Position numbers and translations under genes: made by a program. 64,000 bases of DNA from Arthrobacter sp. SLBN-122. GTDB lineage: Bacteria; Actinomycetota; Actinomycetes; Actinomycetales; Micrococcaceae. This document shows, one piece after another, positions 50,245 through 62,987 of this stretch. Each line of letters starts with the position of its first letter. The first letter of the stretch is position 1. The stretch lies in the NCBI RefSeq assembly GCF_006715165.1, contig NZ_VFMS01000001.1:2790001-2854000 (forward strand), in the 5' to 3' direction. The notes under the pieces are model-generated. The model was not told the origin of the DNA. It saw only the letters and a list, made by a program, of their open reading frames with translations, and searched no databases.

Positions 50245-50976
50245 ATGGCAGAGAAGCGACCCACCCTGGTCGACGCCGTCGTGGACAAGGTCCTTGAGCA
50301 CATCCTCAGTGGCGAGATCAAGGCCGACGACGCCCTGCCGCCGGAGGCTGATATCGCCAAGGAGTCCGGCGTCAGCAGGCTGACGGCCCGCGAAGCCATG
50401 AAAGTGCTGAAGGCGCAGGACGTCGTGTACGTAAAGCGCGGCCTGGGCACCTTCGTCAACCCGCCCGAGCGCTGGACGGGACTGGACGCCATTATGCGCT
50501 CAGCTTCCCGGGGAGTGGCCTCGGACCAGGTGGCGCTTCGTTTGCTCGAAGTCCGCCGCATGGTGGAGACCGGCGCGGCGGAACTCGCTGCCTCCCGCCA
50601 CCGGCCGGCTGACCTCGCCGCACTGCAGGACAGCGTGGAGCAGATGGAAGCGGCGCATCACGCCGGCGACGTGGACGCGCTGACCGTGGCTGACATCGCC
50701 TTCCACGACACCGTCCTGCGCGCATCCGGCAACCCGTTCGTGCCGGCCCTGCTTGGCCAGCTGTCCACCTTGCTTTACGCGATGCGGCGCGAAACCTCAG
50801 CGTTCCCTGACGTGCAGCGCCACGCCATCCACCATCACAAGATGGTCCTGGCCGCCATTGCCGCCGGGGACCCGGCCACCGCCCGCTCCACCATGGACGC
50901 GCACATCACCCAGACTTTCGAGGACTACGAGCGCTACCTCGCCGTGTCCAGCCCCACCGGAGCAAGTGCCCGCTAG
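50245..50976 (+). CDS. GntR-family transcriptional regulator, FCD (FadR) subfamily
   Basis: 243 residues from ATG 50245. The winged HTH (about 8-75) reads VVDKVLEHILSGEIKADDALPPEADIAKESGVSRLTAREAMKVL in order, with GLGTFV at the wing. The FCD effector domain (about 95-225) is all-helical with the likely metal-binding histidines in ADIAFHDTVLRASGN and AIHHHKMVLAAI. It is the first gene of the sugar catabolic island and lies just upstream of the MFS gene, whose promoter has a perfect palindrome (51090-51103) suitable as its operator. Such proteins are usually repressors relieved by a sugar acid or related metabolite. Confidence 0.9.
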   Translation: MAEKRPTLVDAVVDKVLEHILSGEIKADDALPPEADIAKESGVSRLTAREAMKVLKAQDVVYVKRGLGTFVNPPERWTGLDAIMRSASRGVASDQVALRLLEVRRMVETGAAELAASRHRPADLAALQDSVEQMEAAHHAGDVDALTVADIAFHDTVLRASGNPFVPALLGQLSTLLYAMRRETSAFPDVQRHAIHHHKMVLAAIAAGDPATARSTMDAHITQTFEDYERYLAVSSPTGASAR

Positions 50977-51049
50977 GCCTGTCTGAACCTCTTCCAACTG
51001 GGTATTTTCCTGCTATCGGCATGCCGTCCGGTCGCGTCGGCACTCGTGT

Positions 51050-51078
51050 TTGACGCTCCCGGTCCCTGTGATTAGAAT
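51050..51078 (+). promoter_or_regulatory. Strong promoter of the first MFS-SDR unit
   Basis: TTGACG at 51050-51055, 17 bases, then TAGAAT at 51073-51078. Transcription should begin near 51085, just before a palindromic operator, so a bound repressor would block initiation or early elongation. Confidence 0.8.
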
Positions 51079-51089
51079 CTCATACAGAC

Positions 51090-51103
51090 ATCAGACATCT
51101 GAT
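51090..51103 (+). promoter_or_regulatory. Palindromic operator downstream of the MFS promoter
   Basis: ATCAGACATCTGAT is a 14-bp perfect inverted repeat around CA, extendable by GA/TC beyond one mismatched pair on each side. A third TCAG-like half follows. The size and position fit a GntR/FCD-type repressor, most simply the one at 50245. Confidence 0.75.
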
Positions 51104-51146
51104 ATCAGTTTTCCCCAAAAAAATGCCGCCAGCCAAAGGAGTCGTT

Positions 51147-51203
51147 ATGCGCGCGCATTCCCCTTTCGAGGGTTTCCTCACCGCACTGGGAGGCCGGCGA
51201 TGA
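51147..51203 (+). CDS. 18-residue upstream peptide (possible leader peptide) of the MFS gene
   Basis: ATG 51147 has a strong ribosome site (AAAGGAG, 5-base spacing). The peptide is MRAHSPFEGFLTALGGRR, and its TGA overlaps the MFS ATG as ATGA (51200-51203). It is placed between the operator and the transporter gene, so it should be translated first and couple initiation of the transporter. It could be a regulatory leader peptide or simply a coupling cistron. No similarity claimed. Confidence 0.6.
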   Translation: MRAHSPFEGFLTALGGRR

Positions 51204-52549
51204 CCTCCCGCGCCACTGCCCCCGCCCTCAGCGAGTTGGGCGAGACCACCCTCCGCAAGGTCCGCCGGAGGCTTATGCCCCTGATCGTCCTGCTGTACTT
51301 CATCGCCTACCTGGACCGGAACAATGTGGGCTTCGCAAAGCTCGGCATGCAGGGGGACATCGGCCTGACCGAAGCCGCCTACGGCCTGGGCGCCGGCATC
51401 TTCTTCCTCGGCTATGCGCTGCTGGAGATTCCGTCCAACGGCGGCATGTACCGCTATGGGGCCCGGAAGTGGATCGCCCGGATCCTGATCAGCTGGGGCA
51501 TTTTTGCCACGGCCATGTTCCTGGTGAACGGTGAAGCCACCTTCTACATCATCCGGTTCCTGCTTGGAGCCGCCGAGGCCGGCTTCTTCCCCGCCATCCT
51601 CTTCTACCTGACCCTGTGGTTCCCCGCAGCGCAGCGGGTGACGGTGCTGGGTATCTTCATCCTGGCCCAGCCCATCTCCAACGCCCTCGGCGCACCCGTG
51701 TCCGGCATGCTCCTGAACCTGGAAGGCGTGGCAGGCCTGCACGGCTGGCAGTGGCTGTACATCCTTGAAGGCATTCCCGCCATCCTGCTGGGCATCATCA
51801 CCCCCTTCGTCATGACGGACCGGCCCGAACACGCCAAGTGGCTCAAGCCGGAAGAACGTGAGTGGCTCTCCACCACGATGGCCGCCGAACTCGCCCACAA
51901 GCAGAAGTCCGGCAACCACAACTTCCTTGCCGGCCTGAAAGACCCCCGCACCATCGCCTACTCGGCGCTGTACTTCGGCCTGGTCTGCGGCATCTACGGC
52001 CTGGGGCTCTGGCTGCCCACCATCGTCAAGGCGCTGGGCAAGTTCGACTCGACCCAGGTGGGCTTCATCGTCTTCATCCCGTACGCCATCGCAGCGGTGT
52101 TCGTCTACTTCTGGAGCAAGCGCTCGGACCGGACCGGCAACCGCGTATGGCATGCCAGCATGAGCATGGTGCTCGCCGCCGTCGGCCTCCTGGGCGCAGG
52201 CTTCCTGCTGCCGGTCAACGCCGTGCTGGCCATGGTGTTCCTGACCCTCGCGGCCATGGGCATCTACTCCGCCATCGCACCGTTCCTCGCCATGCCCTCC
52301 GCAGCCCTCACCGGTGCTGCTGCTGCTGCCGGGCTTGCCATGGTCAACTCCCTTGGCAACCTGGGTGGCTTCGTGGCGCCCTATATCGTGGGCATCCTCA
52401 AGGACGCCACCGGAAACAGCCAGAGCGGGCTGGTGTTCCTGGCCGCCTGCCTCGCCATAACCGCTGCAGCCACCTACCTTTACGCACGCAAACGGCCGGA
52501 AGGTGTCTCCGCCCCCGGGGCCACAATTCCTGCCGCCGAAACACACTAG
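51200..52549 (+). CDS. MFS transporter, anion:cation symporter (ACS) type
   Basis: 449 residues from ATG 51200 (GGGAGG upstream), sharing bases with the leader-peptide stop. Twelve hydrophobic spans are expected. The signatures YFIAYLDRNNVGFAKLGM (loop 1) and LLGAAEAGFFPAILFYLTLWFP are typical of the ACS family, whose members import sugar acids, tartrate, phthalate and similar anions with protons. The C-terminal half ends NSLGNLGGFVAPYIVGILKD. It is followed by an SDR gene 9 bases later and is clearly paralogous to the transporter at 59422. Confidence 0.92.
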   Translation: MTSRATAPALSELGETTLRKVRRRLMPLIVLLYFIAYLDRNNVGFAKLGMQGDIGLTEAAYGLGAGIFFLGYALLEIPSNGGMYRYGARKWIARILISWGIFATAMFLVNGEATFYIIRFLLGAAEAGFFPAILFYLTLWFPAAQRVTVLGIFILAQPISNALGAPVSGMLLNLEGVAGLHGWQWLYILEGIPAILLGIITPFVMTDRPEHAKWLKPEEREWLSTTMAAELAHKQKSGNHNFLAGLKDPRTIAYSALYFGLVCGIYGLGLWLPTIVKALGKFDSTQVGFIVFIPYAIAAVFVYFWSKRSDRTGNRVWHASMSMVLAAVGLLGAGFLLPVNAVLAMVFLTLAAMGIYSAIAPFLAMPSAALTGAAAAAGLAMVNSLGNLGGFVAPYIVGILKDATGNSQSGLVFLAACLAITAAATYLYARKRPEGVSAPGATIPAAETH

Positions 52550-52558
52550 GACACACCA

Positions 52559-53335
52559 ATGACTACACAGCACACCTTTCCCGCAGAACGCACCGCGGTC
52601 CTGACCGGGGCTGCATCGGCCCGCGGGATCGGCCGGGCAACCGCAGACCGGCTGGCCAGCGAAGGCTGGTCCATCGCCATCCTGGACATCAACGACGAAG
52701 ATGCCAAGGCGGCGGCGGCAGAAATCGGTGCCAACCGCGCCGTCAAGGCCATCGGCGTAGGTGCCGACGTCTCTGACGAGGCATCCGTGGACCGCGCCAT
52801 TACAGAGATCGAGCAGGCGCTTCCGCCCATCGTCGGACTGGTCAACCTTGCGGGCATCAGTTCGCCCACCACCTTCATGGAAACCACGGTGGCGGAATGG
52901 GACAAGGTCTTCGCCATCAACATGCGCGGCACCTTCATCGTTTCCCAACGGGTCCTCAAGGGCATGATCGAGCGCGAACTCGGGAGGATCGTCAGCATCT
53001 CCTCCATCTCAGCCCAGCGCGGCGGCGGCACCTACTCCAAGGTGGCCTACAGTGCGTCGAAAGCCGGCATCCTGGGCTTCACCCGTGCCCTGGCCCGCGA
53101 GGTGGGCGGGCACAACATCACCGTGAACGCCATTGCCCCAGGTCCGATCGACACGGACATCATGGGCGGCACGCTGACAGACGAGCGCAAGGCCCAGATG
53201 TCCGAGGGGATCATGATGGGCCGGGTGGGAACCCGTGAGGAAGTAGCCGCGCTGATCGCGTTCCTGCTTGGCGAGGATGCCGGTTACATCACCGCCGCCA
53301 CGTACGACATCAACGGCGGCCTGCAGGTTTCCTGA
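52559..53335 (+). CDS. SDR-family oxidoreductase (first copy)
   Basis: 258 residues from ATG 52559. Classical SDR: nucleotide site VLTGAASARGIGRATADRL; NLAGISSP; catalytic Ser and Tyr-x-x-x-Lys in ISSISAQRGGG then YSASKAGILGF. The segment PGPIDTDIMGGTL resembles polyol or sugar dehydrogenases. The N-terminal Asp in AILDIND favours NAD(H). It forms an operon with the MFS gene upstream and is a paralogue of the SDR at 58570. It probably oxidises or reduces the imported sugar compound. A terminator hairpin follows. Confidence 0.9.
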   Translation: MTTQHTFPAERTAVLTGAASARGIGRATADRLASEGWSIAILDINDEDAKAAAAEIGANRAVKAIGVGADVSDEASVDRAITEIEQALPPIVGLVNLAGISSPTTFMETTVAEWDKVFAINMRGTFIVSQRVLKGMIERELGRIVSISSISAQRGGGTYSKVAYSASKAGILGFTRALAREVGGHNITVNAIAPGPIDTDIMGGTLTDERKAQMSEGIMMGRVGTREEVAALIAFLLGEDAGYITAATYDINGGLQVS

Positions 53336-53344
53336 CCCCCGTTT

Positions 53345-53388
53345 CCTGCTGGTGCCGTGCAGCCGCCCGGCCGCACGGCACCAGCAGG
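53345..53388 (+). terminator. Terminator-like hairpin after the first MFS-SDR unit
   Basis: CCTGCTGGTGCCGTGC pairs perfectly over 16 bp with its complement at 53373-53388; the 12-base loop is itself GC-rich. There is no U-run. It begins 10 bases after the SDR stop and separates this unit from the next regulator gene. Confidence 0.75.
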
Positions 53389-53448
53389 CGTGCCCGGGAC
53401 CACCACACCCACGCGCTCCCGCGCATCTTCCGGCTATAGGATTTCTAC

Positions 53449-54138
53449 ATGGCAACCAAGAACCAGGCCTCCGGCGGCGTGAGCAGGCAGGTCCTCGCCG
53501 ACCACGTGTATGAAGCGCTTCTTGTTGCCCTGATGGACGGCCGGCTGGAAGCCGGCACCCCGGTCAGCATCGACGGGATGGCCCGGGAACTGGACGTTTC
53601 CCCGACACCGGTGCGCGAGGCGCTCGCCCGGCTGGAAGCGACCGGGATGGTGCGCAGGGCCGCCCTGCGCGGTTACCGCGTGGCCCCGCTGTTCTCCCCG
53701 GAGGAACTTGCCGATCTCATGGACGCCCGCCTGGTCATCGAACCGGCCAATGCTTTCATGGCCTGCAAACATGCGGACCCGCAACTGACAGGGCAACTGG
53801 AGCAGGCCATCGAGGACCTGAAGGCAGCGCCGCGCGGGCCGTCCTTCGCGGAGTTCCGCGCCTACTGGGAAGCCGACGAACGCTTCCACCGGCTTATCGC
53901 CGAGTCCGCGGACAACCAGTTCCTGCTGTCTGCCTACAACGCCTTGGGCGGCCAGGTGCAGCGCTTCCGCTTCTTCGGCGGCCTGGGCGTGACGGATGCC
54001 GACTATGCCATCTCCGAGCACACCGAAATCCTCAAGGCCTTCGAAGCCGGCGACGCCGAGCTTGCCCGGCAAAAGATGATCGACCACATTGAAGGGGTCA
54101 AGCAGCGCTCGCAGCACGACAGCGAAGTGCGCAGCTAG
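53449..54138 (+). CDS. GntR-family regulator, FCD subfamily (second copy in the island)
   Basis: 229 residues from ATG 53449. There is no clear Shine-Dalgarno; TATAGG lies 8 bases before the start. Winged HTH (about 10-75): VYEALLVALMDGRLEAGTPV, SIDGMARELDVSPTPVREALARLEATGMVRR. FCD domain (about 95-215): DERFHRLIAESADNQFLLSAYN, EHTEILKAFEAGDAELARQKMIDHI. CTATAGGA occurs both in its own promoter (53434-53441) and at the start of the next operon (54233-54240), so it may regulate both. It differs clearly from the 50245 regulator. Confidence 0.9.
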   Translation: MATKNQASGGVSRQVLADHVYEALLVALMDGRLEAGTPVSIDGMARELDVSPTPVREALARLEATGMVRRAALRGYRVAPLFSPEELADLMDARLVIEPANAFMACKHADPQLTGQLEQAIEDLKAAPRGPSFAEFRAYWEADERFHRLIAESADNQFLLSAYNALGGQVQRFRFFGGLGVTDADYAISEHTEILKAFEAGDAELARQKMIDHIEGVKQRSQHDSEVRS

Positions 54139-54204
54139 CACGTCCCTCAGGCCCCTGTAGGCCCTCCCTGCACAAGCTCCCGCAAGGGAGCAACAAACAC
54201 CCCC

Positions 54205-54256
54205 TTGACAGGACCCACGTAAAGCGTAGATCCTATAGGAAATGCGATTCTAGATC
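54205..54256 (+). promoter_or_regulatory. Promoter and putative operator of the kinase operon
   Basis: A consensus -35 TTGACA (54205-54210) is followed after 16 bases by TAGATC (54227-54232). The 10-bp palindrome TCCTATAGGA lies at 54231-54240, overlapping the -10. TAGATC recurs at 54251-54256. The palindrome shares CTATAGGA with the promoter of the adjacent GntR gene. Just upstream, GCTCCC-GCAA-GGGAGC (54176-54191) is a small hairpin. Confidence 0.7.
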
Positions 54257-54266
54257 TGGAGTGACA

Positions 54267-55265
54267 ATGCCGTACACCGCTGAAAACTGGCCCATCGCCG
54301 CTGCCCTGCTGCAGTTCCCGGGAACCAAACCCGACGGAACCTCTATCCAGGATGCCCCTGCCAGTGACTGGCAGCAGGTCTTCGAAGAAGTGGCAGACGC
54401 CGGCTTCACCAACGCCGACCTCACCGATAGCTGGGTGCGCCCCGGCGATCTCTCAACCGCCCGGCTGGACGAACTGAAGGCGGCCGCCACCGCCGCCGGT
54501 CTGGGGCTTCCCTCCATCTCCGCCATCCGCCGCAGCGTGATCGAAGAAGGCAAGTGGGAGGAAAACCTGGCCTACACGCACCGGACCCTCGAGGCCGCCG
54601 CCCAGCTCGGTTGCGAGGTGGTCTCGATCGGCCTGCACCAGGCCATCACACCGGAGCAGCAGAAGCAGCTCTGGTTCTGGACCGTCGAGGGCCACAAGGA
54701 CCCGGCAGGGGACAAGGAAACCTGGAACAACGCCGTCACCCGCATCCGCGAAGTGGGCAAGCACGCCGCGGAACTGGGGCTCCTGGTCTCGCTGGAGATG
54801 TACGAGGACACCTACCTTGGCACCGCAGACTCCTCGGTCCAGCTGGTCCAGGACATCGACCTGCCCAACGTTGGCTTGAATCCGGACCTGGGAAACCTGA
54901 TCCGCCTGCACCGCCCCATCGAGGACTGGCGCGAGCTGGTCCACAAGACGCTGCCCTACTCCAACTACTGGCACGTCAAGAACTACATCCGTGACGAGGA
55001 CCAGGCCCGCGACCACTATGTTGCAATGCCGGCGCCCATGGAGTCCGGCCTCATCAGCTACCGCGAGGCCTTCCAGTTCGCCATCTCGGTGGGCTTCCAG
55101 GGCATCATCTGCACCGAACACTATGGGGGCGACGGCCTCAGCGTTACGGCCGCCAACCAGGACTACCTGCGCCGGCAGGTCCTCCCGAAGCGGGACAGCT
55201 ACGCACTGGGCACCAGCCTGGTGGCCCAGGGCCGGCAGACGCCGGCGGCCGTTCCGGCACGCTAG
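54267..55265 (+). CDS. TIM-barrel sugar isomerase/epimerase-like enzyme (xylose isomerase-like family)
   Basis: 332 residues from ATG 54267 (GGAG, 5-base spacing). The family pattern of AP-endonuclease-2 type barrels is seen: TDSWVRPGDLSTARLDELKAA, GLPSISAIRRSVIEEGK, REVGKHAAELGLLVSLEMYE (metal Glu), DLPNVGLNPDLGN and YWHVKNYIRDE. Such enzymes act as ketose isomerases, epimerases, or in some acid-sugar pathways as decarboxylases of 3-oxo acids. It is first in the operon with the DhaK-DhaL kinase and RpiB-like isomerase. Its precise reaction is not decided by sequence; decarboxylase, epimerase and isomerase are all possible. Confidence 0.8.
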   Translation: MPYTAENWPIAAALLQFPGTKPDGTSIQDAPASDWQQVFEEVADAGFTNADLTDSWVRPGDLSTARLDELKAAATAAGLGLPSISAIRRSVIEEGKWEENLAYTHRTLEAAAQLGCEVVSIGLHQAITPEQQKQLWFWTVEGHKDPAGDKETWNNAVTRIREVGKHAAELGLLVSLEMYEDTYLGTADSSVQLVQDIDLPNVGLNPDLGNLIRLHRPIEDWRELVHKTLPYSNYWHVKNYIRDEDQARDHYVAMPAPMESGLISYREAFQFAISVGFQGIICTEHYGGDGLSVTAANQDYLRRQVLPKRDSYALGTSLVAQGRQTPAAVPAR

Positions 55266-55310
55266 CACCGGCAGGCATCCCAACCGACCCAACGGGTTCA
55301 ACGAGGAATC

Positions 55311-57032
55311 ATGACAAAAATATTTGACGATCCAGCGCAGTTCGCTGACGACGCCCTCGACGGCTTCGTTGCAGCCAACCGCCAGTACGTGGCCCGGGTG
55401 GACGGCGGCGTTGTCCGCTCCACCGAATCACCCGAGGGCCAGGTGGCAGTGGTCATCGGCGGCGGTTCCGGCCACTATCCGGCCTTCGCCGGCCTGGTTG
55501 GCGCCGGGCTTGCCGCCGGAAGCGCCTGCGGCAACATGTTTGCTTCCCCCTCCGCCGGGCAGGTGTACCGGGTGGCCAAAGCCTCCCAAACCGGCGGCGG
55601 TGTCCTGCTCAGCTACGGCAACTACGCCGGCGACGTGCTCCACTTCGGCCAGGCGCAGGAGAAGCTGAACGCTGAAGGCATCGAAACCCGCACCGTGCTG
55701 GTAACCGATGACATCGCCAGTGCGCCCCTCGAAGAAATCGGCAAGCGCCGCGGCATCGCCGGTGACCTTACCGTCTTCAAGGTGGCCGGCGCGGCCGCAG
55801 AGGCCGGGCTGGACCTGGACGAGGTGGAGAGGCTCGCCATCAAGGCCAACCACCGCACCCGCTCCCTCGGCGTGGCCTTCGCCGGCTGCACACTCCCCGG
55901 CGCAAGCGAGCCCCTCTTCACCGTGCCGGAAGGCATGATGTCGGTGGGACTGGGCATCCACGGCGAACCCGGGATCTCCGAGCAGCCCCTGCCCAGCGCC
56001 AGCGAACTGGCCAAACTGCTGGTGGACGGTCTGTTGAAGGACAAACCGGACGCCGCAGGCCAACGCGTGGTACCCATCCTCAACGGACTGGGAACGGTCA
56101 AGTATGACGAGCTCTTCCTGCTGTTCGGAAAGGTCGAAGCCCTGCTCTCCGCAGCCGGACTGGACATCGTGGAGCCTGAGTGCGGTGAACTGGTGACCAG
56201 CCTGGACATGTCCGGCCTGTCCCTGACGCTGTTCTGGCTGGATGAGGAACTGGAGAAGTTCTGGGCCGCGCCGGCTGACACCCCTGCCTTCCGCAAGGGT
56301 AATCTTGCCCAGCGCCGGGCACGTTCGGTGGAGTCCCTGGCTGAGGCTGCCACGGCGCCTGCGCTGGCCGCCACCGCCGCCTCCACTGCCTTGGCCGCCA
56401 CCGCCGTGGACGCTCTGAAGGAGGCGCGCGCCGTCGTCGTCGAACACGAGGAGGCACTCGGAAAGCTGGATGCCATCGCCGGGGACGGCGACCACGGCAT
56501 CGGCATGCGGCGCGGCGTGGACGCGGCCGTTGCTGCAGCGGAGAAGTCCCACGCAGGCGGCGCCGGCCTGGAGGAAGTCCTCGCGGCGGCGGGGGAGCAG
56601 TGGGCCGAGCGCGCCGGCGGTACCTCCGGGGCCCTTTGGGGCGCGGCCGTCACCGCCGTTGGCAGGACCCTTGGCAGCAAGGACGCCTATACCGCCGCTG
56701 ACGCAGCGGCGGCCGTCAACGCCCTCCGCGATGCCATCATCACCCTGGGCAAGGCGGAAGCGGGAGACAAGACCATGGTGGACGCGCTCCTTCCGTTCGC
56801 TGAGACCTTCACCAAGGCAATTGACGACGGCGGCAGCTTGGCCGGCAGCCTGCGTGCGGCAGCGGAAGCTGCCGCCAAGGCCGCTGACGCGACTGCCGAC
56901 CTCAGCCCGAAGAAAGGCCGTGCCCGGCCGCTCGCCGAAAAGAGCCTCGGCCACCCGGATCCCGGCGCCGTCTCGTTCGGCCTTATCGCCCGCAGGGTGG
57001 CGGACTACGCCGCCACCATCGAAAGCTCCTAA
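55311..57032 (+). CDS. Fused DhaK-DhaL dihydroxyacetone/tetrulose kinase
   Basis: 573 residues. The DhaK domain (1 to about 335) has the [12 protein letters not shown] motif (50-61) and His217 in [11 protein letters not shown], which in this family binds the carbonyl substrate covalently. The DhaL domain (about 360-573) has [12 protein letters not shown] (391-402), the Mg-ATP site. Single-chain ATP-dependent kinases of this type include dihydroxyacetone kinase and the L- or D-erythrulose kinases LerK and DerK. Next to RpiB-like and TpiA-like genes, a tetrulose kinase is more likely than a dihydroxyacetone kinase. An Ala-rich linker joins the domains. Confidence 0.9.
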
Positions 57033-57042
57033 GGAGAATCGC

Positions 57043-57537
57043 ATGACTGAGCAAACCCAGCCAGGCTGGCGCATCGTCGTCGGCAACGACGAAGCCGGCG
57101 TCGAATACAAGAACGCCCTGCGCGAGATGCTTGAGGCGGACCCCCGCGTTGCGTCGGTGGAGGACGTAGGAGTCGGCGCCGACGACTCCACGGCCTACCC
57201 GCACTTGGCCGTCGCCGCAGCCCGTAAGGTGGCCGCCGGCGAAGCGGACCGCGCGCTGTTGATCTGCGGCACCGGCCTGGGCGTGGCCATTTCGGCCAAC
57301 AAGGTACCGGGCATCCGGGCGGTCACGGCCCACGACAGCTACTCCGTGGAACGCTCCGTGCTGTCCAACAACGCGCAGGTGCTGACCATGGGCCAGCGCG
57401 TCATCGGCCTGGAACTGGCCAAGAAGCTGGTGGGCGAGTGGCTCAACTACCGCTTCGATGAAAACTCCGCATCCGCGGCAAAAGTAGACGCCATCTGCTC
57501 CTATGAGGGCGCGTCGGAAGGACTTGAAACCAAATGA
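57043..57537 (+). CDS. RpiB/LacAB-family sugar phosphate isomerase (DerI-like)
   Basis: 164 residues from ATG 57043 (AAGGAG upstream). RpiB-family features: [15 protein letters not shown] at the N-terminus (DEAG in place of DHAG), the catalytic cysteine in [20 protein letters not shown], and [23 protein letters not shown]. Relatives convert ribose/ribulose 5-phosphates or, in tetritol pathways, D-erythrulose 4-phosphate to D-erythrose 4-phosphate (DerI/EryI). Placement between the kinase and the 3-hydroxyacyl-CoA-dehydrogenase-like gene supports the latter. It overlaps the next start by ATGA. Confidence 0.9.
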
Positions 57538-58487
57538 GCACCCGTAACATCGCCGTCGTCGGCTCCGGCTACATGGGCGGCGGAATCGCCCAGGTCCTGG
57601 CACTCGCCGGAGCCCGCGTGGCACTGGCGGACGTCTCCGCCGAAATCGCCCAGAGCAACTACGAGCGCCTGCTGAAGGAATCCGACGAGTTCGTCGCGGC
57701 CGGCCTGTTCCCTGCGAACGCCACCGACCTGCTCAAGGAAAACCTCTGGGCAGCCAAGGACATCGAAGAAGCCGTGGCCGGCGCCGAGTACATCGAGGAG
57801 GCAGTGCCGGAGGTCCTGGAGATCAAGCACGCCACCCTGGGCAGGATCAGCGCCGCCGCCCGCCCCGATGCCATCATCGGCTCCAACACCTCCACCATCT
57901 CCATCGCCAAGCTGGCCGAGGTGGTGGACAACCCGGAGCGCTTCCTGGGCGTCCACTTCTCCAACCCGGCCCCGTTCATCCCCGGCGTGGAAGTCATCCC
58001 GCACGAAGGAACTTCCGAGGCAACGGTCCAGGCCGCCCGCACCATCGTGGGGGAGACCGGCAAGGAAACAGCCACCGTCAAGGACGTCACCGGCTTCGTG
58101 CTGAACCGGCTCCAGTACGCCCTCTTCCACGAAGCCGCACAGGTGGTGGAGGAAGGCATCGCCACCGCGGAGGACGTGGATACCCTGGTGCGCACCACCT
58201 TCGGCTTCCGGCTGCCCTTCTTCGGGCCGTTCGCGATCGCCGACATGGCAGGCCTGGACGTGTACGCCTTCTGCTATAAGTCCCTGCAGACCGGCTTCCC
58301 GGAGCGGTTCGCCACCCCCAAGATCCTGCAGGACAAGGTCGACGCCGGCCAGCTGGGCACCAAGACCGGCTCCGGCTTCCTGGACGTCCCGGCTGACCGG
58401 ACCGCTGCCCTTGTTGCCTACCGGAACAAGGCATACGTCGCCATGCAAAAGCTCATCGAGGACCTGGGCCCCGCCCCGCTGTCCTAG
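57534..58487 (+). CDS. 3-hydroxyacyl-CoA dehydrogenase-family NAD-dependent dehydrogenase
   Basis: 317 residues from ATG 57534 (ATGA with rpiB). The N-terminal Rossmann fold is [20 protein letters not shown] with Asp in ALADV, giving NAD preference. The catalytic pattern [18 protein letters not shown] holds the family His, followed by [20 protein letters not shown]. The C-terminal helical domain closes the protein. The family includes 3-hydroxybutyryl-CoA dehydrogenase and L-gulonate 3-dehydrogenase. Surrounded by carbohydrate genes, a sugar-acid 3-dehydrogenase role is more likely than fatty-acid oxidation; a 3-oxo acid product could then be decarboxylated. Confidence 0.85.
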
Positions 58488-58500
58488 CCAGACCACCGCA

Positions 58501-58535
58501 CGGTAAAGGCGCCGCCCCAGGCGGCGCCTTTACCG
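58501..58535 (+). terminator. Strong hairpin inside the kinase operon
   Basis: CGGTAAAGGCGCCGCC pairs perfectly over 16 bp with its complement (58520-58535), with loop CCA, 13 bases after the dehydrogenase stop. There is no U-run. It could end part of the transcripts or protect the upstream mRNA 3' end. Confidence 0.75.
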
Positions 58536-58569
58536 CGACCGAAACCTGCCTCACCGGAAGGAACAATCC

Positions 58570-59337
58570 ATGACAGCATTTCCCGCAGACCGCACGGTGA
58601 TCGTCACCGGGGCAGTCTCAGAGCGAGGCATCGGCCGGGCCACCGCAGACTACCTTGCCGAACGTGGGTGGAACATCGGCGTGATCGACCTCGATGACGC
58701 TGCCTGCAAGGCAGTCGCCAAGGAGTTGGCGGAAAAGCACGGCGTCAAAGCCCACGGGGCCGGCGCCAATATCGGCGACGAGGCTTCCGTACGTGCCGCC
58801 ATCGACGAGATCGAGGCAGAACTGCCCCAGCTCGTGGCCCTTGCCAACATCGCCGGCGTCAGCTCTCCGGTTCCCTACCTTGAACTCGACGGCGCCGAGT
58901 GGGACCGCGTGATCAACATCAACATGAACGGTGTCCACTACGCCACCCGCCGGGCAGCTGAATCCATGGTGAAGAACCGGCTGGGGCGGATCGTGAACAT
59001 CTCCTCGGTCTCCGCCCAGCGCGGCGGCGGAACCTTCAGCAAGACCCCGTACTCCGTGGCCAAGGCCGGCGTCATCGGCCTGACCCGCGCCACCGCCCGT
59101 GAACTGGGGGAGTACGACATCACCGTCAACGCCATCTCACCCGGTCCCATCGACACCGACATCATGGGCGGCACCCTCAGCGAGGAACGCAAGGATGAGC
59201 TCGTCAAGGACCTGGTGGTGAACCGGGTGGGCACCACTCGAGACGTCGCCGCAGCCATCTCATTCCTGATCGGCGAGGATGCCGGCTATATCTCCGGCCA
59301 GACGCTGAACGTCGACGGCGGCCTGTACATGCACTGA
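58570..59337 (+). CDS. SDR-family oxidoreductase (second copy)
   Basis: 255 residues from ATG 58570 (GGAAGGA upstream). VIVTGAVSERGIGRATADYL is the cofactor site with Asp in GVIDLDD; the catalytic Ser and Tyr-x-x-x-Lys are in ISSVSAQRGGG and YSVAKAGVIGL. Both SDRs share SAQRGGGT and PGPIDTDIMGGTL, so they are paralogues. It would use NAD(P) to oxidise a polyol or ketose. It precedes the second MFS gene, mirrored to the first unit (MFS then SDR). Confidence 0.9.
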   Translation: MTAFPADRTVIVTGAVSERGIGRATADYLAERGWNIGVIDLDDAACKAVAKELAEKHGVKAHGAGANIGDEASVRAAIDEIEAELPQLVALANIAGVSSPVPYLELDGAEWDRVININMNGVHYATRRAAESMVKNRLGRIVNISSVSAQRGGGTFSKTPYSVAKAGVIGLTRATARELGEYDITVNAISPGPIDTDIMGGTLSEERKDELVKDLVVNRVGTTRDVAAAISFLIGEDAGYISGQTLNVDGGLYMH

Positions 59338-59338
59338 C

Positions 59339-59388
59339 GGCACCCCTACCGGGTGCCACCGCAAGACCCGCGGGCCGCCGGCCCGCGG
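59339..59388 (+). repeat. Two consecutive hairpins between the second SDR and MFS genes
   Basis: GGCACCC/GGGTGCC (59339-59357, loop CTACC) is followed by CCGCGGGCC/GGCCCGCGG (59368-59388, loop GCC). Together they could act as an mRNA processing or transcription attenuation point within the operon. Confidence 0.7.
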
Positions 59389-59421
59389 ACAACACCAACC
59401 CACCACTCGAAGGAGAGTGTT

Positions 59422-60768
59422 GTGTCCGAAACCACCGCAACATCCAAGGAACTTCTGGCCCGCCCGGTCCTGAAGTCCGCGATCTTCAAGGCGGCCCGCC
59501 GGCTCATGCCGATGCTGGTCATCCTGTATGTCGTTTCGTTCCTGGACCGCACCAACGTCGGCTTCGCAGAGGCCGCGCTGGGAGCGGACAAGGGGGTGTC
59601 CGCCGCGGCCTTCGCCCTGGGCGCAGGCATCTTCTTCATCGGCTACGCGATCTTCGAGATCCCCAGCAACCTGCTGCTCAAGAAGGTCGGCGCCAAGATC
59701 TGGCTGGCACGCATCGCCATCACGTGGGGCATCGTTTCGGCATGCTTCGCTTTTGTGCAGGGCGAGACGTCGTTCGTGATCCTGCGTTTCCTCCTCGGCG
59801 TGACCGAAGCAGGGCTGTTCCCCGGCGTGATCATGTACCTCGCCGAGTGGTTCCCCAACAAGGTGCGCGTGCAGATGTTCGCCATCTTCTACCTGGCACA
59901 GCCGTTCTCCCAGATGATCGGCAACCCGCTGTCCGGCTGGCTGATCAACATCGGCGACCAGGTGCCCGGCCTGCGCGGCTGGCAGGTCATGTTCTTCGTC
60001 GAAGGCCTCCTGGCCGTCCTTGCCGGCATCGCAGCGTTCTTCTTCCTGATCAACGGTCCGGAGAAGGCCAAGTTCCTCAACAAGGAAGAGAAGTACGCGC
60101 TGAAGGAAGTCATGGCGCTTGAAGACACCATCAAGGACGAAACCGGGCCCCGCGGCATCCTGGCCGCCATGCGCAACGGCCGCGTCTGGTATTTCACCGC
60201 CATCTACTTCTGCCTGCAGATCGCCGTCTACGGCGTGACGTTCTTCCTGCCGCAGCAGGTGTCCTCCCTGACCGGGCAGAAGGTTGGACTGGCCGTCGGC
60301 CTGCTGATCGCGGTCCCGTGGTTCTTCGGCATCTTCTCCTGCTACTTCATCGGAAAAGCCGCAGATACCGTGGCCAAGCGCCGCAAGTTCGGCACCATCC
60401 TGTTCATCTCAACAGGCCTGTGCATCTTCGGGTCGGCCTGGGCAGGCACCAACCACCAGCCGGTCATCGGCATGATCTTCATTACCCTGGCGGTGTGCAG
60501 CTTCCTGGCCGTTGGCCCGGTGGTCTGGTCCTATCCGACCGCGTTCCTCGCCGGATCGGCCGCCGCAGCCGGCATCGGCCTGATCAACTCCCTTGGCAAC
60601 CTGGGTGGCTTCGTGGCCCCGATCCTGCGGACCGCGGTCAACGAGGCCACGCAATCGCCCACCGGATCCATGGGCGTCTACGCCCTGGGCGTCCTGCCCT
60701 TCGTGGCCGCTGCGATGATGTTCGCCACCAAGCGGTTCAAGAACAAGGCCGACGACCTGCTCGACTGA
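59422..60768 (+). CDS. MFS transporter, anion:cation symporter (ACS) type (second copy)
   Basis: 448 residues from GTG 59422 (AAGGAGAG upstream). The loop-1 signature YVVSFLDRTNVGFAEAALG and LLGVTEAGLFPGVIMYLAEWFP mark the ACS family. It shares overall layout and the NSLGNLGGFVAP segment with the first MFS protein but diverges elsewhere, so substrates may differ. It may import a sugar acid or related anion. The TpiA-like gene follows 30 bases after the stop. Confidence 0.92.
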   Translation: MSETTATSKELLARPVLKSAIFKAARRLMPMLVILYVVSFLDRTNVGFAEAALGADKGVSAAAFALGAGIFFIGYAIFEIPSNLLLKKVGAKIWLARIAITWGIVSACFAFVQGETSFVILRFLLGVTEAGLFPGVIMYLAEWFPNKVRVQMFAIFYLAQPFSQMIGNPLSGWLINIGDQVPGLRGWQVMFFVEGLLAVLAGIAAFFFLINGPEKAKFLNKEEKYALKEVMALEDTIKDETGPRGILAAMRNGRVWYFTAIYFCLQIAVYGVTFFLPQQVSSLTGQKVGLAVGLLIAVPWFFGIFSCYFIGKAADTVAKRRKFGTILFISTGLCIFGSAWAGTNHQPVIGMIFITLAVCSFLAVGPVVWSYPTAFLAGSAAAAGIGLINSLGNLGGFVAPILRTAVNEATQSPTGSMGVYALGVLPFVAAAMMFATKRFKNKADDLLD

Positions 60769-60798
60769 GCACGTCACCCCTCTCCACAAAGGAAAGCC

Positions 60799-61611
60799 AT
60801 GAGCACCTCCGGCAGCAGCACAGGGAACGGCACCCTCTACATCGGTGTCAGCACCAAGATGTACCTGGGATACCAGGCAAGCCTGCGCTGGCTGTCGGAG
60901 GTCCGCTCTGTTGTCGACGACAGGCCCGGACTGGGCACGAATTCCGCCAAGGATTCCGCGGTCCGGGTCTTCGTCATCCCATCCTTTCCGGTCCTGGAGC
61001 CTGCCGCGCGGATCCTGGCCGGCTCGCCCGTCCTGCTGGGAGCGCAGAACTGCGCCTGGGGCGACGGGCCCCTGACCGGGGAAGTCAGTCCCGGAATGCT
61101 GGCCGAACTGGGCGTTTCGCTCGTCGAAATCGGCCACGCGGAACGTCGCAAATTCTTTGCCGAGGATGATGCCGTGGTGGCACGCAAGGTGCGCGCCGCC
61201 GTCGGCCATTCCCTCACCCCGCTGCTCTGCATCGGCGAGGCGGACAAGCTCGACGCCGGCGCTGCCGCCGCCTTCTGCGTGCAGCAGGTCCGCGCCGCCA
61301 CGGACGGCGACCCCGCCCTGCTCAGCAGCCTGCTCCTGGCGTACGAGCCGGTCTGGGCCATCGGTGCGCAGGAACCCGCCCCGCCGGAGCACGTCAACGC
61401 CGTCCTGGCCCACATCCGTGCCGAGCTGGGCAGGGACTGCCCCCTTATATACGGCGGCAGCGCCGGCCCGGGCCTGCTTCCACTGTTGCCCGCGGCGGAT
61501 GGACTCTTCCTGGGCCGCTTCGCGCACGACGCCGCCAACCTGGGCCGCGTACTGGACGAAGCCCTCGCCCTTGCCCAGACCCGCGGCTCAGACGCGCGCG
61601 CCTGCCAGTAA
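60799..61611 (+). CDS. Triosephosphate isomerase-like enzyme (tetrulose-1-phosphate isomerase LerI/EryH-like)
   Basis: 270 residues from ATG 60799 (AAAGGAAAG upstream). TPI fold landmarks: GVSTKMYLGY (active-site Lys kept, the usual Asn two residues before is Ser), GAQNCAWGDGPLTGEVS, catalytic His in VEIGHAERRKFF, catalytic Glu in LAYEPVWAIG, and the phosphate loop IYGGSAGPG. The N-terminal change and the catabolic context argue against glycolytic TpiA and for a paralogue acting on L-erythrulose 1-phosphate. Its last 24 bases overlap the convergent SRPBCC gene. Confidence 0.85.
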   Translation: MSTSGSSTGNGTLYIGVSTKMYLGYQASLRWLSEVRSVVDDRPGLGTNSAKDSAVRVFVIPSFPVLEPAARILAGSPVLLGAQNCAWGDGPLTGEVSPGMLAELGVSLVEIGHAERRKFFAEDDAVVARKVRAAVGHSLTPLLCIGEADKLDAGAAAAFCVQQVRAATDGDPALLSSLLLAYEPVWAIGAQEPAPPEHVNAVLAHIRAELGRDCPLIYGGSAGPGLLPLLPAADGLFLGRFAHDAANLGRVLDEALALAQTRGSDARACQ

Positions 61612-62073
61612 TTCCTCGAGCCGCTCGTAGCCTTCAGACATTCCGCCCTCCATGCCCGACTGCGCCATGCCGTCGCGCGCCTCCTGGCTGGGGTACACCG
61701 AGTGCCCCCGCAGCCGGGTCCGTCCATTGCCCAGGTCTTCAAACGTCATGAACTCCAGGCTGACGATGTCCGGGTAACCGCCGAACTCAAACGTCTGCAG
61801 GGCGAACTCGTTCTCGCGCACCGTATGGAAGATGCCACGGAACTCGTAGGCCACCCCGTCCGGTCCCGTATGCAGGTAGCTGTAGCTGCCGCCCGTGCGG
61901 AAGTCGTAGTGGTCGATCGCCATCTTCATGCCCCGCGGGCCCAGCCACTGGACAATGAGGTCCGGCTCTTTGTGCGCGCGGAACACATCCGCGACCGGGA
62001 AATCGAACTCGCGCTCAAAATCGATGAAGGGGACGCCCTCGGGAACGCTGAGTTTCAGGGAATTGCTCATCAT
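61588..62073 (-). CDS. SRPBCC/AHSA1-family protein
   Basis: 161 residues from ATG 62073 (overlapping the ArsR gene stop as ATGA; a second ATG follows at once). The SRPBCC pattern FEREFDFPVADVFRAHKEPDLIVQWLGPRGM, TGGSYSYLHTGPDGVAYEFRGIFHTV and TRLRGHSVYPSQEARDGM identifies an activator-of-Hsp90 C-terminal-like hydrophobic-pocket protein. The usual arrangement is an ArsR regulator followed by such a protein; its ligand is unknown. The 3' end overlaps tpiA-like by 24 bases on the opposite strand. Confidence 0.9.
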   Translation of the reverse strand: MMSNSLKLSVPEGVPFIDFEREFDFPVADVFRAHKEPDLIVQWLGPRGMKMAIDHYDFRTGGSYSYLHTGPDGVAYEFRGIFHTVRENEFALQTFEFGGYPDIVSLEFMTFEDLGNGRTRLRGHSVYPSQEARDGMAQSGMEGGMSEGYERLEELLAGARV

Positions 62074-62429
62074 GACTCCTTGGATGATTCATCGCCGCTG
62101 TCCGCGGTGTTTGATTTGAGTACGGCATCCAGGCTGCGGAACTGCCCTTCACGCACCAACCGGTAGCGGTCGATCCATGCGGTCAGCGCCTCAAGCCGCG
62201 CCGGGTTCAGGTGGACGGGCCTGCGCTGCGCGTCCCTGCTTCGGGTCACCAGTTCCGCCTGCTCGAGCACCTGGATATGTTTCGAAACCGCCTGCTTGGA
62301 GATTTCGAACGGTTCTGCCAATTCGTTCACTGTTGCCGGGCCCCGGCTGAGCCGTGCAATGATGCTCCTTCGCACGGGATCTGCCAAGGCCATGAAGGCC
62401 GAGTCCAAGGCCGCACTTTCAGAGTTCAT
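62070..62429 (-). CDS. ArsR-family transcriptional regulator
   Basis: 119 residues from ATG 62429. A winged HTH: ALADPVRRSIIARLSRGPATVNELAEPFEISKQAVSKHIQVLEQ with the recognition helix in KQAVSKHIQVLE; wing RSRDAQRRPVHL. No Cys metal site is present, so it is not the classical metal sensor; it belongs to the SRPBCC-linked type. It should regulate its own operon. It lies divergent from the tautomerase gene across 153 bases. Confidence 0.92.
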   Translation of the reverse strand: MNSESAALDSAFMALADPVRRSIIARLSRGPATVNELAEPFEISKQAVSKHIQVLEQAELVTRSRDAQRRPVHLNPARLEALTAWIDRYRLVREGQFRSLDAVLKSNTADSGDESSKES

Positions 62430-62582: not shown

Positions 62583-62987
62583 ATGCCATTGGTTCGCATC
62601 GACGTTAATGAAGGGCGCAGCGCGGAGGACCTGCAGCAGCTCAGCCGCGGAATCCACGACGCGATCCTTGCCGAGTACGGCATTCCGGAGCGGGACTACT
62701 TCCACATCCTGACCGAGCACCCGCAGGGCCAGATATTCGCCCAGGATGCCGGACTGGGGTTTGAGCGCACCGGGGGAGTTGTGATGATCCAGATCTTCAC
62801 CCAGGGCGGGCGTTCGCAGGAGGCCAAGCAGCGGCTCTTCGCGGCGGTGGCCGAAAAGCTTGCGGCAGTTGGCGTGGCCGGGGAGGACGTCTTCATTGGC
62901 TATGTCGAAAACACGGCCGGTGACTGGTCCTTCGGCTTTGGCCGCGCGCAGTACGTAACGGGCGAATTGGCCGTTCCGAGGAAGTAG
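62583..62987 (+). CDS. Tautomerase-family protein (4-OT/MIF superfamily)
   Basis: 134 residues from ATG 62583 (AAGGAG upstream). After Met the protein begins PLVRIDVNEGRSAEDLQQLS: Pro at position 2 is the catalytic base of this superfamily. It is about twice the length of 4-oxalocrotonate tautomerase and fits the Tautomerase_2 type. The likely chemistry is keto-enol tautomerisation or a related dehalogenation/hydration; the substrate is unknown. The shared operator suggests co-regulation with the inositol genes that begin just downstream. Confidence 0.88.
   Translation: MPLVRIDVNEGRSAEDLQQLSRGIHDAILAEYGIPERDYFHILTEHPQGQIFAQDAGLGFERTGGVVMIQIFTQGGRSQEAKQRLFAAVAEKLAAVGVAGEDVFIGYVENTAGDWSFGFGRAQYVTGELAVPRK

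Follow-up and report, generated by a model that had tools for sequence, protein, structure and literature searches.

A proposed operon of Arthrobacter sp. SLBN-122 for breaking down pentonates via tetruloses, with two MFS/SDR inlets

Among the described systems closest to the locus reported here, the degradation of threonate and erythronate involves the enzymes LtnD, OtnI, OtnK, OtnC, PdxA2 and DtnK, and lambda-crystallin acts as L-gulonate 3-dehydrogenase. D-apionate is reportedly catabolized by ApnO, OiaC, LerK, LerI and DerI, as Carter et al. 2018 are said to have found, and Huang et al. 2015 are said to deal with the use of erythritol and threitol in Mycobacterium smegmatis. We compare with these an eleven-gene locus of the soil bacterium Arthrobacter sp. 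SLBN-122, at positions 50245..61611 of a stretch of 64,000 nucleotides that is called the window below (G000:C1:2790001-2854000); the host genome comprises 4.47 Mb in a single contig, and the nearest named relatives among the matches listed are from Arthrobacter and Pseudarthrobacter. The gene order and coordinates proposed in an initial annotation of this DNA hold throughout: all 11 open reading frames are intact and on the + strand, and the class of each protein is backed by Pfam and NCBIfam matches. On balance, the locus is probably a pentonate-to-tetrulose catabolic operon with two inlets, each formed by an MFS transporter and a short-chain dehydrogenase (SDR).

In the proposed pathway an aldonic acid would be taken up via MFS1 or MFS2, and each SDR would turn its own acid into a form accepted by the core. 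The dehydrogenase of the 3-hydroxyacyl-CoA dehydrogenase fold (3HCDH) would then oxidize the C3 hydroxyl to give a 3-oxo acid, which a XylI-like TIM barrel would convert to a tetrulose, here L-erythrulose, and CO2. L-erythrulose would be phosphorylated by the DhaK-DhaL fused kinase (DhaKL) to L-erythrulose 1-phosphate, isomerized by the TpiA-like protein to D-erythrulose 4-phosphate, and further by the RpiB-like protein to D-erythrose 4-phosphate, which would enter central metabolism; two regulators, GntR1 and GntR2, would each control one of two units. We infer every catalytic step, the role of the SDRs, the regulation and the substrate from sequence and genomic context. The initial annotation had suggested a route from a sugar acid through a 3-oxo acid to erythrulose, and this main outline stands: the order of oxidation, decarboxylation to a tetrulose, phosphorylation and isomerization is the best fit, because it accommodates both the swaps of the dehydrogenase and the parallel clusters with ApnO-like proteins described below.

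The conserved core and its dehydrogenases

The core genes co-occur in relatives beyond chance. In the best 80 loci of 567 relatives in named genomes (of which L009, L066 and L072 run past contig ends), tblastn recovers the kinase 79 times, the 3HCDH 77 times and the TpiA-like gene 68 times, and gene calling finds RpiB in 76 loci. When the order is sampled evenly (297 genomes of 94 genera, host included), the barrel is present at E <=1e-40 in 77 genomes and 30 genera. In a sample of the phylum it is present in 4 of 396 genomes, and it is also carried by rhizobial plasmids, by one plasmid of Streptomyces and by a mycobacterium-like genome of the class. The locus of the latter, L093, we take to be mycobacterial, since its barrel looks near-identical to the solved structure 5tnv from M. 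smegmatis. We examined about 20 kb around the barrel (less at contig ends) in 46 of the 77 genomes, which were chosen for family spread and long contigs and include five added for lacking the 3HCDH; with the L093 genome and the three plasmids L089-L091 this gives 51 loci, one genome contributing two. Within 8 kb of the barrel these contain DhaKL (40 loci), RpiB (37), TpiA (32), the 3HCDH (32), an SDR (22), a HIBADH-family protein (12) and PdxA (7). The combination of barrel, kinase, RpiB and TpiA with some dehydrogenase is found repeatedly and in many genera. Variant arrangements include a run of barrel, DhaKL, RpiB, GntP and an LtnD-like gene on the Streptomyces plasmid L091, and PdxA-TctABC-barrel-DhaK on two rhizobial plasmids. 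D-threonate-kinase-like (DUF1537-type) and LtnD-like genes adjoin the core in L161, L163, L164, L136 and L130, and possibly constitute a C4-acid module at a shared site. Throughout, the labels LtnD-like, PdxA-like and D-threonate-kinase-like are taken from the best-scoring NCBIfam model, which in no case reached its cut-off.

The 3HCDH (57534..58487, +; PF02737+PF00725) is a candidate aldonate 3-dehydrogenase and accompanies the barrel across the order, being found at E <=1e-70 in 65 of the 77 barrel-positive genomes versus 3 of the 220 barrel-negative ones (Fisher p 5e-49, uncorrected for ancestry). When its C-terminal, substrate half (117 aa) is searched against solved structures, the best matches are 4om8, an FHMPC dehydrogenase (3.6e-22), and the lambda-crystallins 3ado (8.8e-18) and 3f3s (3e-16), followed by a single chain of an enoyl-CoA hydratase (2.3e-14) and by 3-hydroxybutyryl-CoA dehydrogenases, at 1.8e-13 or weaker; for this half, the result agrees with the first description of the protein as a gulonate-3-dehydrogenase-like enzyme. 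Residues S120, H141, E153 and N191, which we take to be of the catalytic type, are invariant among 32 sequences. The absence of the CoA-type lysine at position 52 was considered as a marker of the acid type and set aside as weak: this lysine is present in 2 of the 3 other 3HCDH proteins of the host genome (not in L168) and in none of 10 family rows compared, and some of the family rows, including that of the window, have a neighboring lysine.

The 3HCDH is missing from 12 barrel-positive genomes, and in 8 of them the cluster carries a PdxA-like or HIBADH/LtnD-like dehydrogenase, both from families known to oxidize hydroxy acids. The former is found in G540, G662 and G634 and the latter in G648, G485, G416, G431 and G522, with G485 and G431 having a PdxA-like protein as well. 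As for the other genomes, in G413 a frame resembling 2-hydroxyacid dehydrogenases (by eye) adjoins one barrel and a 32% match to HIBADH lies about 5 kb from a second, no replacement dehydrogenase is evident in the stretch read around the barrel of G567, and the barrels of G591 and G423 are on short contigs. If the proposed pathway is correct, these swaps would clearly illustrate how one step can be served by enzymes from different families. In two further loci a 2-hydroxyacid dehydrogenase and an FMN-dependent dehydrogenase adjoin the core (L158:12921-15223, by Pfam; L160:3385-5754, by homologues), and this pair is perhaps a further means to oxidize or epimerize the acid.

The sole strong solved relative of the barrel (54261..55265, +; PF01261, 5.5e-26) is 5tnv (1.6e-90), so that a homologue of this protein has already been studied by a structural group. 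Its residues E179, D209 and E286 are invariant in an alignment of 42 sequences. We propose that it decarboxylates a 3-oxo acid, as a 3-oxo-pentonate decarboxylase, mainly because clusters parallel to the present one hold another barrel beside an ApnO-like protein. Such clusters were recognized through PF16896, a domain of the D-apionate oxidoisomerase ApnO, which is matched in 4 of 20 barrel-positive genomes searched, the host genome G000 having no match. One of the PF16896 proteins was run against Pfam and gave KARI_N as a further match, which would suit the oxidoisomerase role of an ApnO-like protein. In all four positive genomes the ApnO-like protein is found beside a PF01261 barrel different from that of the window and RpiB, and in three of them beside DhaKL too (L164:6693-8464, L179, L180, L181, with L158:5162-7005 as a fifth locus); these loci are probably D-apionate modules in relatives of the order. 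We presume the barrel next to the ApnO-like proteins to be OiaC, in the decarboxylase slot; the 277-aa example from L164 is 26% identical to the window barrel over 95 aa. An ApnO-like module and a 3HCDH-barrel module stand back to back in L164 (genome G503), whose 20 kb contain a single DhaKL-RpiB-TpiA set that the two modules may share. Since an ApnO-like protein and a different barrel accompany kinase and isomerase genes of the same kinds, the route encoded in the window looks parallel to the D-apionate route rather than identical with it, using another dehydrogenase and another barrel.

The tetrulose branch, the substrate and alternative readings

The kinase (55311..57032, +) combines PF02733 and PF02734, in keeping with its earlier assignment to the DhaK type, and would act on a tetrulose, presumably L-erythrulose. 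The host genome encodes two further DhaK proteins. It also contains the locus L094 (G000:C1:2268000-2287999) with two transketolase half-proteins, a sugar-type MFS transporter and SDR, DhaKL and RpiB genes in a run; its 20 kb gave no match to the barrel, the 3HCDH or TpiA, and it is possibly a tetritol or tetrose locus. The TpiA-like protein (60799..61611, +) is a candidate L-erythrulose-1-phosphate isomerase of the LerI type, as had been suggested: among the matches listed, 3s6d (1.1e-40) and 11ef (5.4e-39; titled 'L-erythrulose-1-phosphate isomerase') rank above every ordinary triose-phosphate isomerase (TPI; 1.6e-31 or weaker). A second PF00121 protein elsewhere in the host genome scores higher with that family than the TpiA-like protein does. 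The RpiB-like protein (57043..57537, +), whose best solved relatives are 3qd5 and 3sdw, is a candidate D-erythrulose-4-phosphate isomerase of the DerI type and scores 159 bits with the DerI model NF051858, below its cut-off of 240. An RpiB-like gene is present as the initial annotation had it, but the RpiB label tells little: TIGR02133 ('ribose-5-phosphate isomerase'), tried as a DerI marker, was discarded because 271 of the 297 genomes of the order exceed its cut-off. At least two TIGR02133 matches per genome are found in 75 of the 77 barrel-positive versus 34 of the 220 barrel-negative genomes (p 1e-40, uncorrected for ancestry).

LerI is not universal among carriers of the barrel. By our own split on score and coverage, a LerI-like gene is present in 9 of 16 barrel-positive genomes tested (G400 being borderline), and whole-genome searches of G518, G630, G669, G552, G648, G490 and G422 found only a canonical-looking TPI and no LerI-like gene; four barrel-negative controls have one canonical-looking TPI each. 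Some cores adjoin sugar importers of the ABC (ATP-binding cassette) type, recognized by eye, and a GH39 or GH3 gene, and for the one protein of each family that was searched the nearest solved relatives are beta-xylosidases. The L127 core adjoins a lactonase, and that of L129 an Alpha-L-AF_C protein and an ALO-type oxidase. Among loci with DhaKL, 10 have no TpiA within 8 kb, and GH3 is close to the core in 5 of these versus 1 of the 29 that have TpiA, the exception being L131 (Fisher p 0.002, uncorrected for phylogeny; L178, at a contig end, was omitted). Of the seven loci labeled as LerI-less in a tree of the kinases, L125, L126, L127 and L129 form one supported group and L135 and L173 another, near which L091 falls with weak support. 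The label requires 3 changes on the kinase tree, where 0 of 500 shuffles are as low, and 3 on the barrel tree (1 of 500); L174, L089 and L090, which likewise have no TpiA nearby, were left unlabeled in the kinase tree. This pattern suggests that the kinase may be specialized.

The 3-oxo acids of L-arabinonate and D-xylonate would decarboxylate to L- and D-erythrulose, respectively, and only L-erythrulose 1-phosphate requires LerI. Both L-arabinonate and D-xylonate would be substrates for a 3HCDH of the acid type that acts on a C3 hydroxyl in the L configuration. Because the window has LerI, our tentative and rather doubtful choice of substrate is an L-pentonate, most likely L-arabinonate, whereas variants without LerI, often beside GH3 genes, may use D-xylonate. 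This raises the possibility, which we regard as real though short of probable, of a widespread 3-oxidation of pentonates with three dehydrogenase families, a new subfamily of barrel decarboxylases and entry as D-erythrose 4-phosphate, fed by L-arabinonate where LerI is present and by D-xylonate where it is absent, so that a single core would serve both pentonates of hemicellulose. If true, it would be a third way of pentonate degradation beside the Weimberg and Dahms routes.

Several observations weigh against the proposed pathway. Searched at full length, the 3HCDH matches 4om8 at 5.6e-49, CoA types at 3.5e-46 and lambda-crystallins only at 1e-32, and its NCBIfam scores are near-equal for CoA-type and FHMPC models, both below cut-off; the substrate half thus appears to resemble acid-type enzymes, and the full length fails to separate these from CoA types. 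No 3HCDH, HIBADH or PdxA lies within 8 kb of the barrel in 7 of the 51 loci, and the nearest solved relatives of SDR1 are of the FabG type. The title of 5tnv, 'AP endonuclease, family protein 2', carries no function, and the barrel superfamily also includes epimerases, isomerases and dehydratases. Finally, 5 of the 7 genomes without a LerI-like gene are of the GH3, GH51 or lactonase type, and L-erythrulose is therefore not general as an intermediate.

In a different division of labor, decarboxylation would be the work of the dehydrogenase itself, or a spontaneous decay of the 3-oxo acid, and the barrel would interconvert D- and L-erythrulose as a tetrulose 3-epimerase. PdxA and 6PGDH-type enzymes are known as oxidative decarboxylases, the barrel has weak NCBIfam matches to D-psicose 3-epimerase and L-ribulose-5-phosphate 3-epimerase, and its three invariant acidic residues would suit a metal site of the superfamily. 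We nevertheless hold this to be unlikely, as the barrel is retained with or without LerI and the ApnO-like proteins are accompanied by a different barrel in the presumed decarboxylase slot. Somewhat less likely still is a C4 acid as substrate, either threonate or erythronate, whose 3-oxo-tetronate would be decarboxylated to dihydroxyacetone, with DhaKL as a glycerone kinase and the TpiA-like protein as an ordinary TPI. The PdxA-like, LtnD-like and D-threonate-kinase-like proteins beside some cores fit such a scheme, as do the rhizobial clusters without RpiB or TpiA within 8 kb. However, the rank of the TpiA-like protein with L-erythrulose-1-phosphate isomerase, when a better-scoring TPI is encoded elsewhere in the genome, argues against it, and the multiple RpiB-type genes of barrel-positive genomes would be useless in a dihydroxyacetone route; moreover, a D-threonate-kinase-like gene is near only 5 of the 51 cores.

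That the locus encodes the D-apionate pathway itself, with the 3HCDH performing the oxidoisomerase step, is quite improbable: kinase and isomerase genes of the same kinds are indeed preceded by a barrel and a dehydrogenase, but the host genome lacks a PF16896 match, the barrel from the ApnO side shows little identity to that of the window, and G503 carries both modules side by side. We give least credence to a locus for tetritols or tetroses (erythritol or threitol), with the SDRs as polyol dehydrogenases and the barrel and 3HCDH on a side route. The combination of an SDR, a DhaK-type kinase and isomerases is as in M. smegmatis, and the second SDR-DhaKL-RpiB locus of the host genome would be compatible with it, but both MFS transporters score best with acid-type models, though below cut-off, and an SDR is near the barrel in 22 of 51 loci compared with 32 for the 3HCDH.

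Inlets, regulation and layout of the locus

MFS1 (51200..52549, +) and MFS2 (59422..60768, +), which are 39% identical, are transporters of the anion:cation-symporter type. They had been taken for acid transporters, and their best NCBIfam models are indeed acid-type, at scores below the curated cut-offs (for MFS1, 298.7 bits with HpaX and 293.9 bits with the D-galactonate type; for MFS2, 274.9 bits with the latter). SDR1 (52559..53335, +) and SDR2 (58570..59337, +), assigned by Pfam and NCBIfam, are 56% identical, and in relatives MFS2 is usually the next gene 3' of SDR2. In L032 and L051, MFS1-SDR1 is placed directly 3' of the 3HCDH, in the slot occupied by SDR2-MFS2 in other loci, and GntR1 is found together with MFS1-SDR1 in 13 of the 80 relative loci. 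The two MFS/SDR pairs seem to be interchangeable as inlets of a single core, and the GntR1-MFS1-SDR1 part appears to be a dispensable, optional one. The supposed replacement of ABC uptake by MFS transporters is true locally, with no ABC transporter among the 11 window genes by Pfam or NCBIfam, but does not extend to relatives: the transporters recognized beside cores are MFS, GntP, TctABC and, by eye, sugar ABC systems. In Arthrobacter loci of the L050 type, an ABC importer, two Gfo/Idh/MocA proteins, another PF01261 barrel and ThuA precede the core, the importer genes being present in 7 of the 80 loci. Beside several cores, such as L137 and L139-L142, no transporter was recognized.

The genes are collinear, as the description of a single island implied, but two transcription units are likelier, given the gap sizes and a strong inverted repeat after SDR1 (53345..53388; 21-nt arms, 95% complementary), a possible terminator of the first unit. 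The locus thus looks like a GntR1/MFS1-SDR1 unit followed by GntR2 and an operon running from the barrel to TpiA. Gaps from the barrel to TpiA are 45, 10, -4, 82, 84 and 30 nt and that between MFS1 and SDR1 is 9 nt; the larger gaps are 223 nt before MFS1, 113 nt before GntR2 and 122 nt before the barrel gene. GntR1 (50245..50976, +; PF00392+PF07729) is an FCD-type protein and the putative regulator of MFS1-SDR1, which may bind an inverted repeat 5' of MFS1 (51084..51109; 12-nt arms, 83% complementary, 2-nt spacing). GntR2 (53449..54138, +), likewise FCD-type by Pfam, would regulate the core operon; its candidate operator region, 5' of the barrel gene (54205..54240, +), comprises a promoter-like TTGACA (54205-54210) and, just 3' of it, the palindrome TCCTATAGGA (54231-54240), of which GntR2 is the putative binder. 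A CTATAGG/CCTATAG core is found at most 250 nt 5' of the barrel gene in 72 of the 80 relative loci versus 81 of 5934 control windows. In a scan for a WTCCTATAGGAW regulon, the whole host genome contains 2 sites; the other site (L184:6378-9386, in G000:C1:836000-852000) lies between a gene resembling FMN-type hydroxyacid oxidases (by eye) and an amino-acid permease, being 5' of the latter as well as of a gene of the acetamidase family; the same stretch has a separate GntR-like gene, and the site yields no clue to the substrate. Downstream, an AHSA1-domain protein and an ArsR-type regulator (61588-62429, -) are convergent to the operon, with a 24-nt overlap at the 3' end of the TpiA-like gene, and a tautomerase-family protein (PF14552) is encoded at 62583-62987 (+).

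Comparison with described pathways

Neither this operon nor a pentonate-to-tetrulose route is described in the open papers searched, including excerpts of PMC12780249 and PMC6302742; Carter 2018 and Huang 2015 were outside the search and may describe it. If correct, our proposal would provide a function for a TIM-barrel family present in about one in four of the genomes sampled from the order, and a new route from pentose acids to erythrose 4-phosphate, a precursor of aromatic compounds.

With the D-apionate pathway the proposed route would share the conversion of an acid to a 3-oxo acid, a barrel decarboxylase, an L-erythrulose kinase and two isomerases leading to D-erythrose 4-phosphate; it differs in its 3HCDH-fold dehydrogenase and distinct barrel subfamily, with PF16896 missing from the genome. 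The tetritol pathway of M. smegmatis likewise has a DhaK-type tetrulose kinase, a TpiA-like LerI and an RpiB-like DerI, whereas the window is without ABC uptake genes and has acid-type MFS transporters and a front end of barrel and 3HCDH. The threonate and erythronate pathways use related dehydrogenases and a PF01261 barrel, but the window kinase is of the DhaK type, and no D-threonate-kinase-like (DUF1537-type) acid kinase is matched by Pfam or NCBIfam among the 11 window genes. In the L-gulonate 3-dehydrogenase route to L-xylulose, an acid dehydrogenase of the 3HCDH fold also oxidizes C3 ahead of decarboxylation to a ketose; there, in animals, a C6 acid gives a C5 sugar, whereas the route proposed for the window would turn a C5 acid into a C4 sugar and involves a barrel and a kinase.

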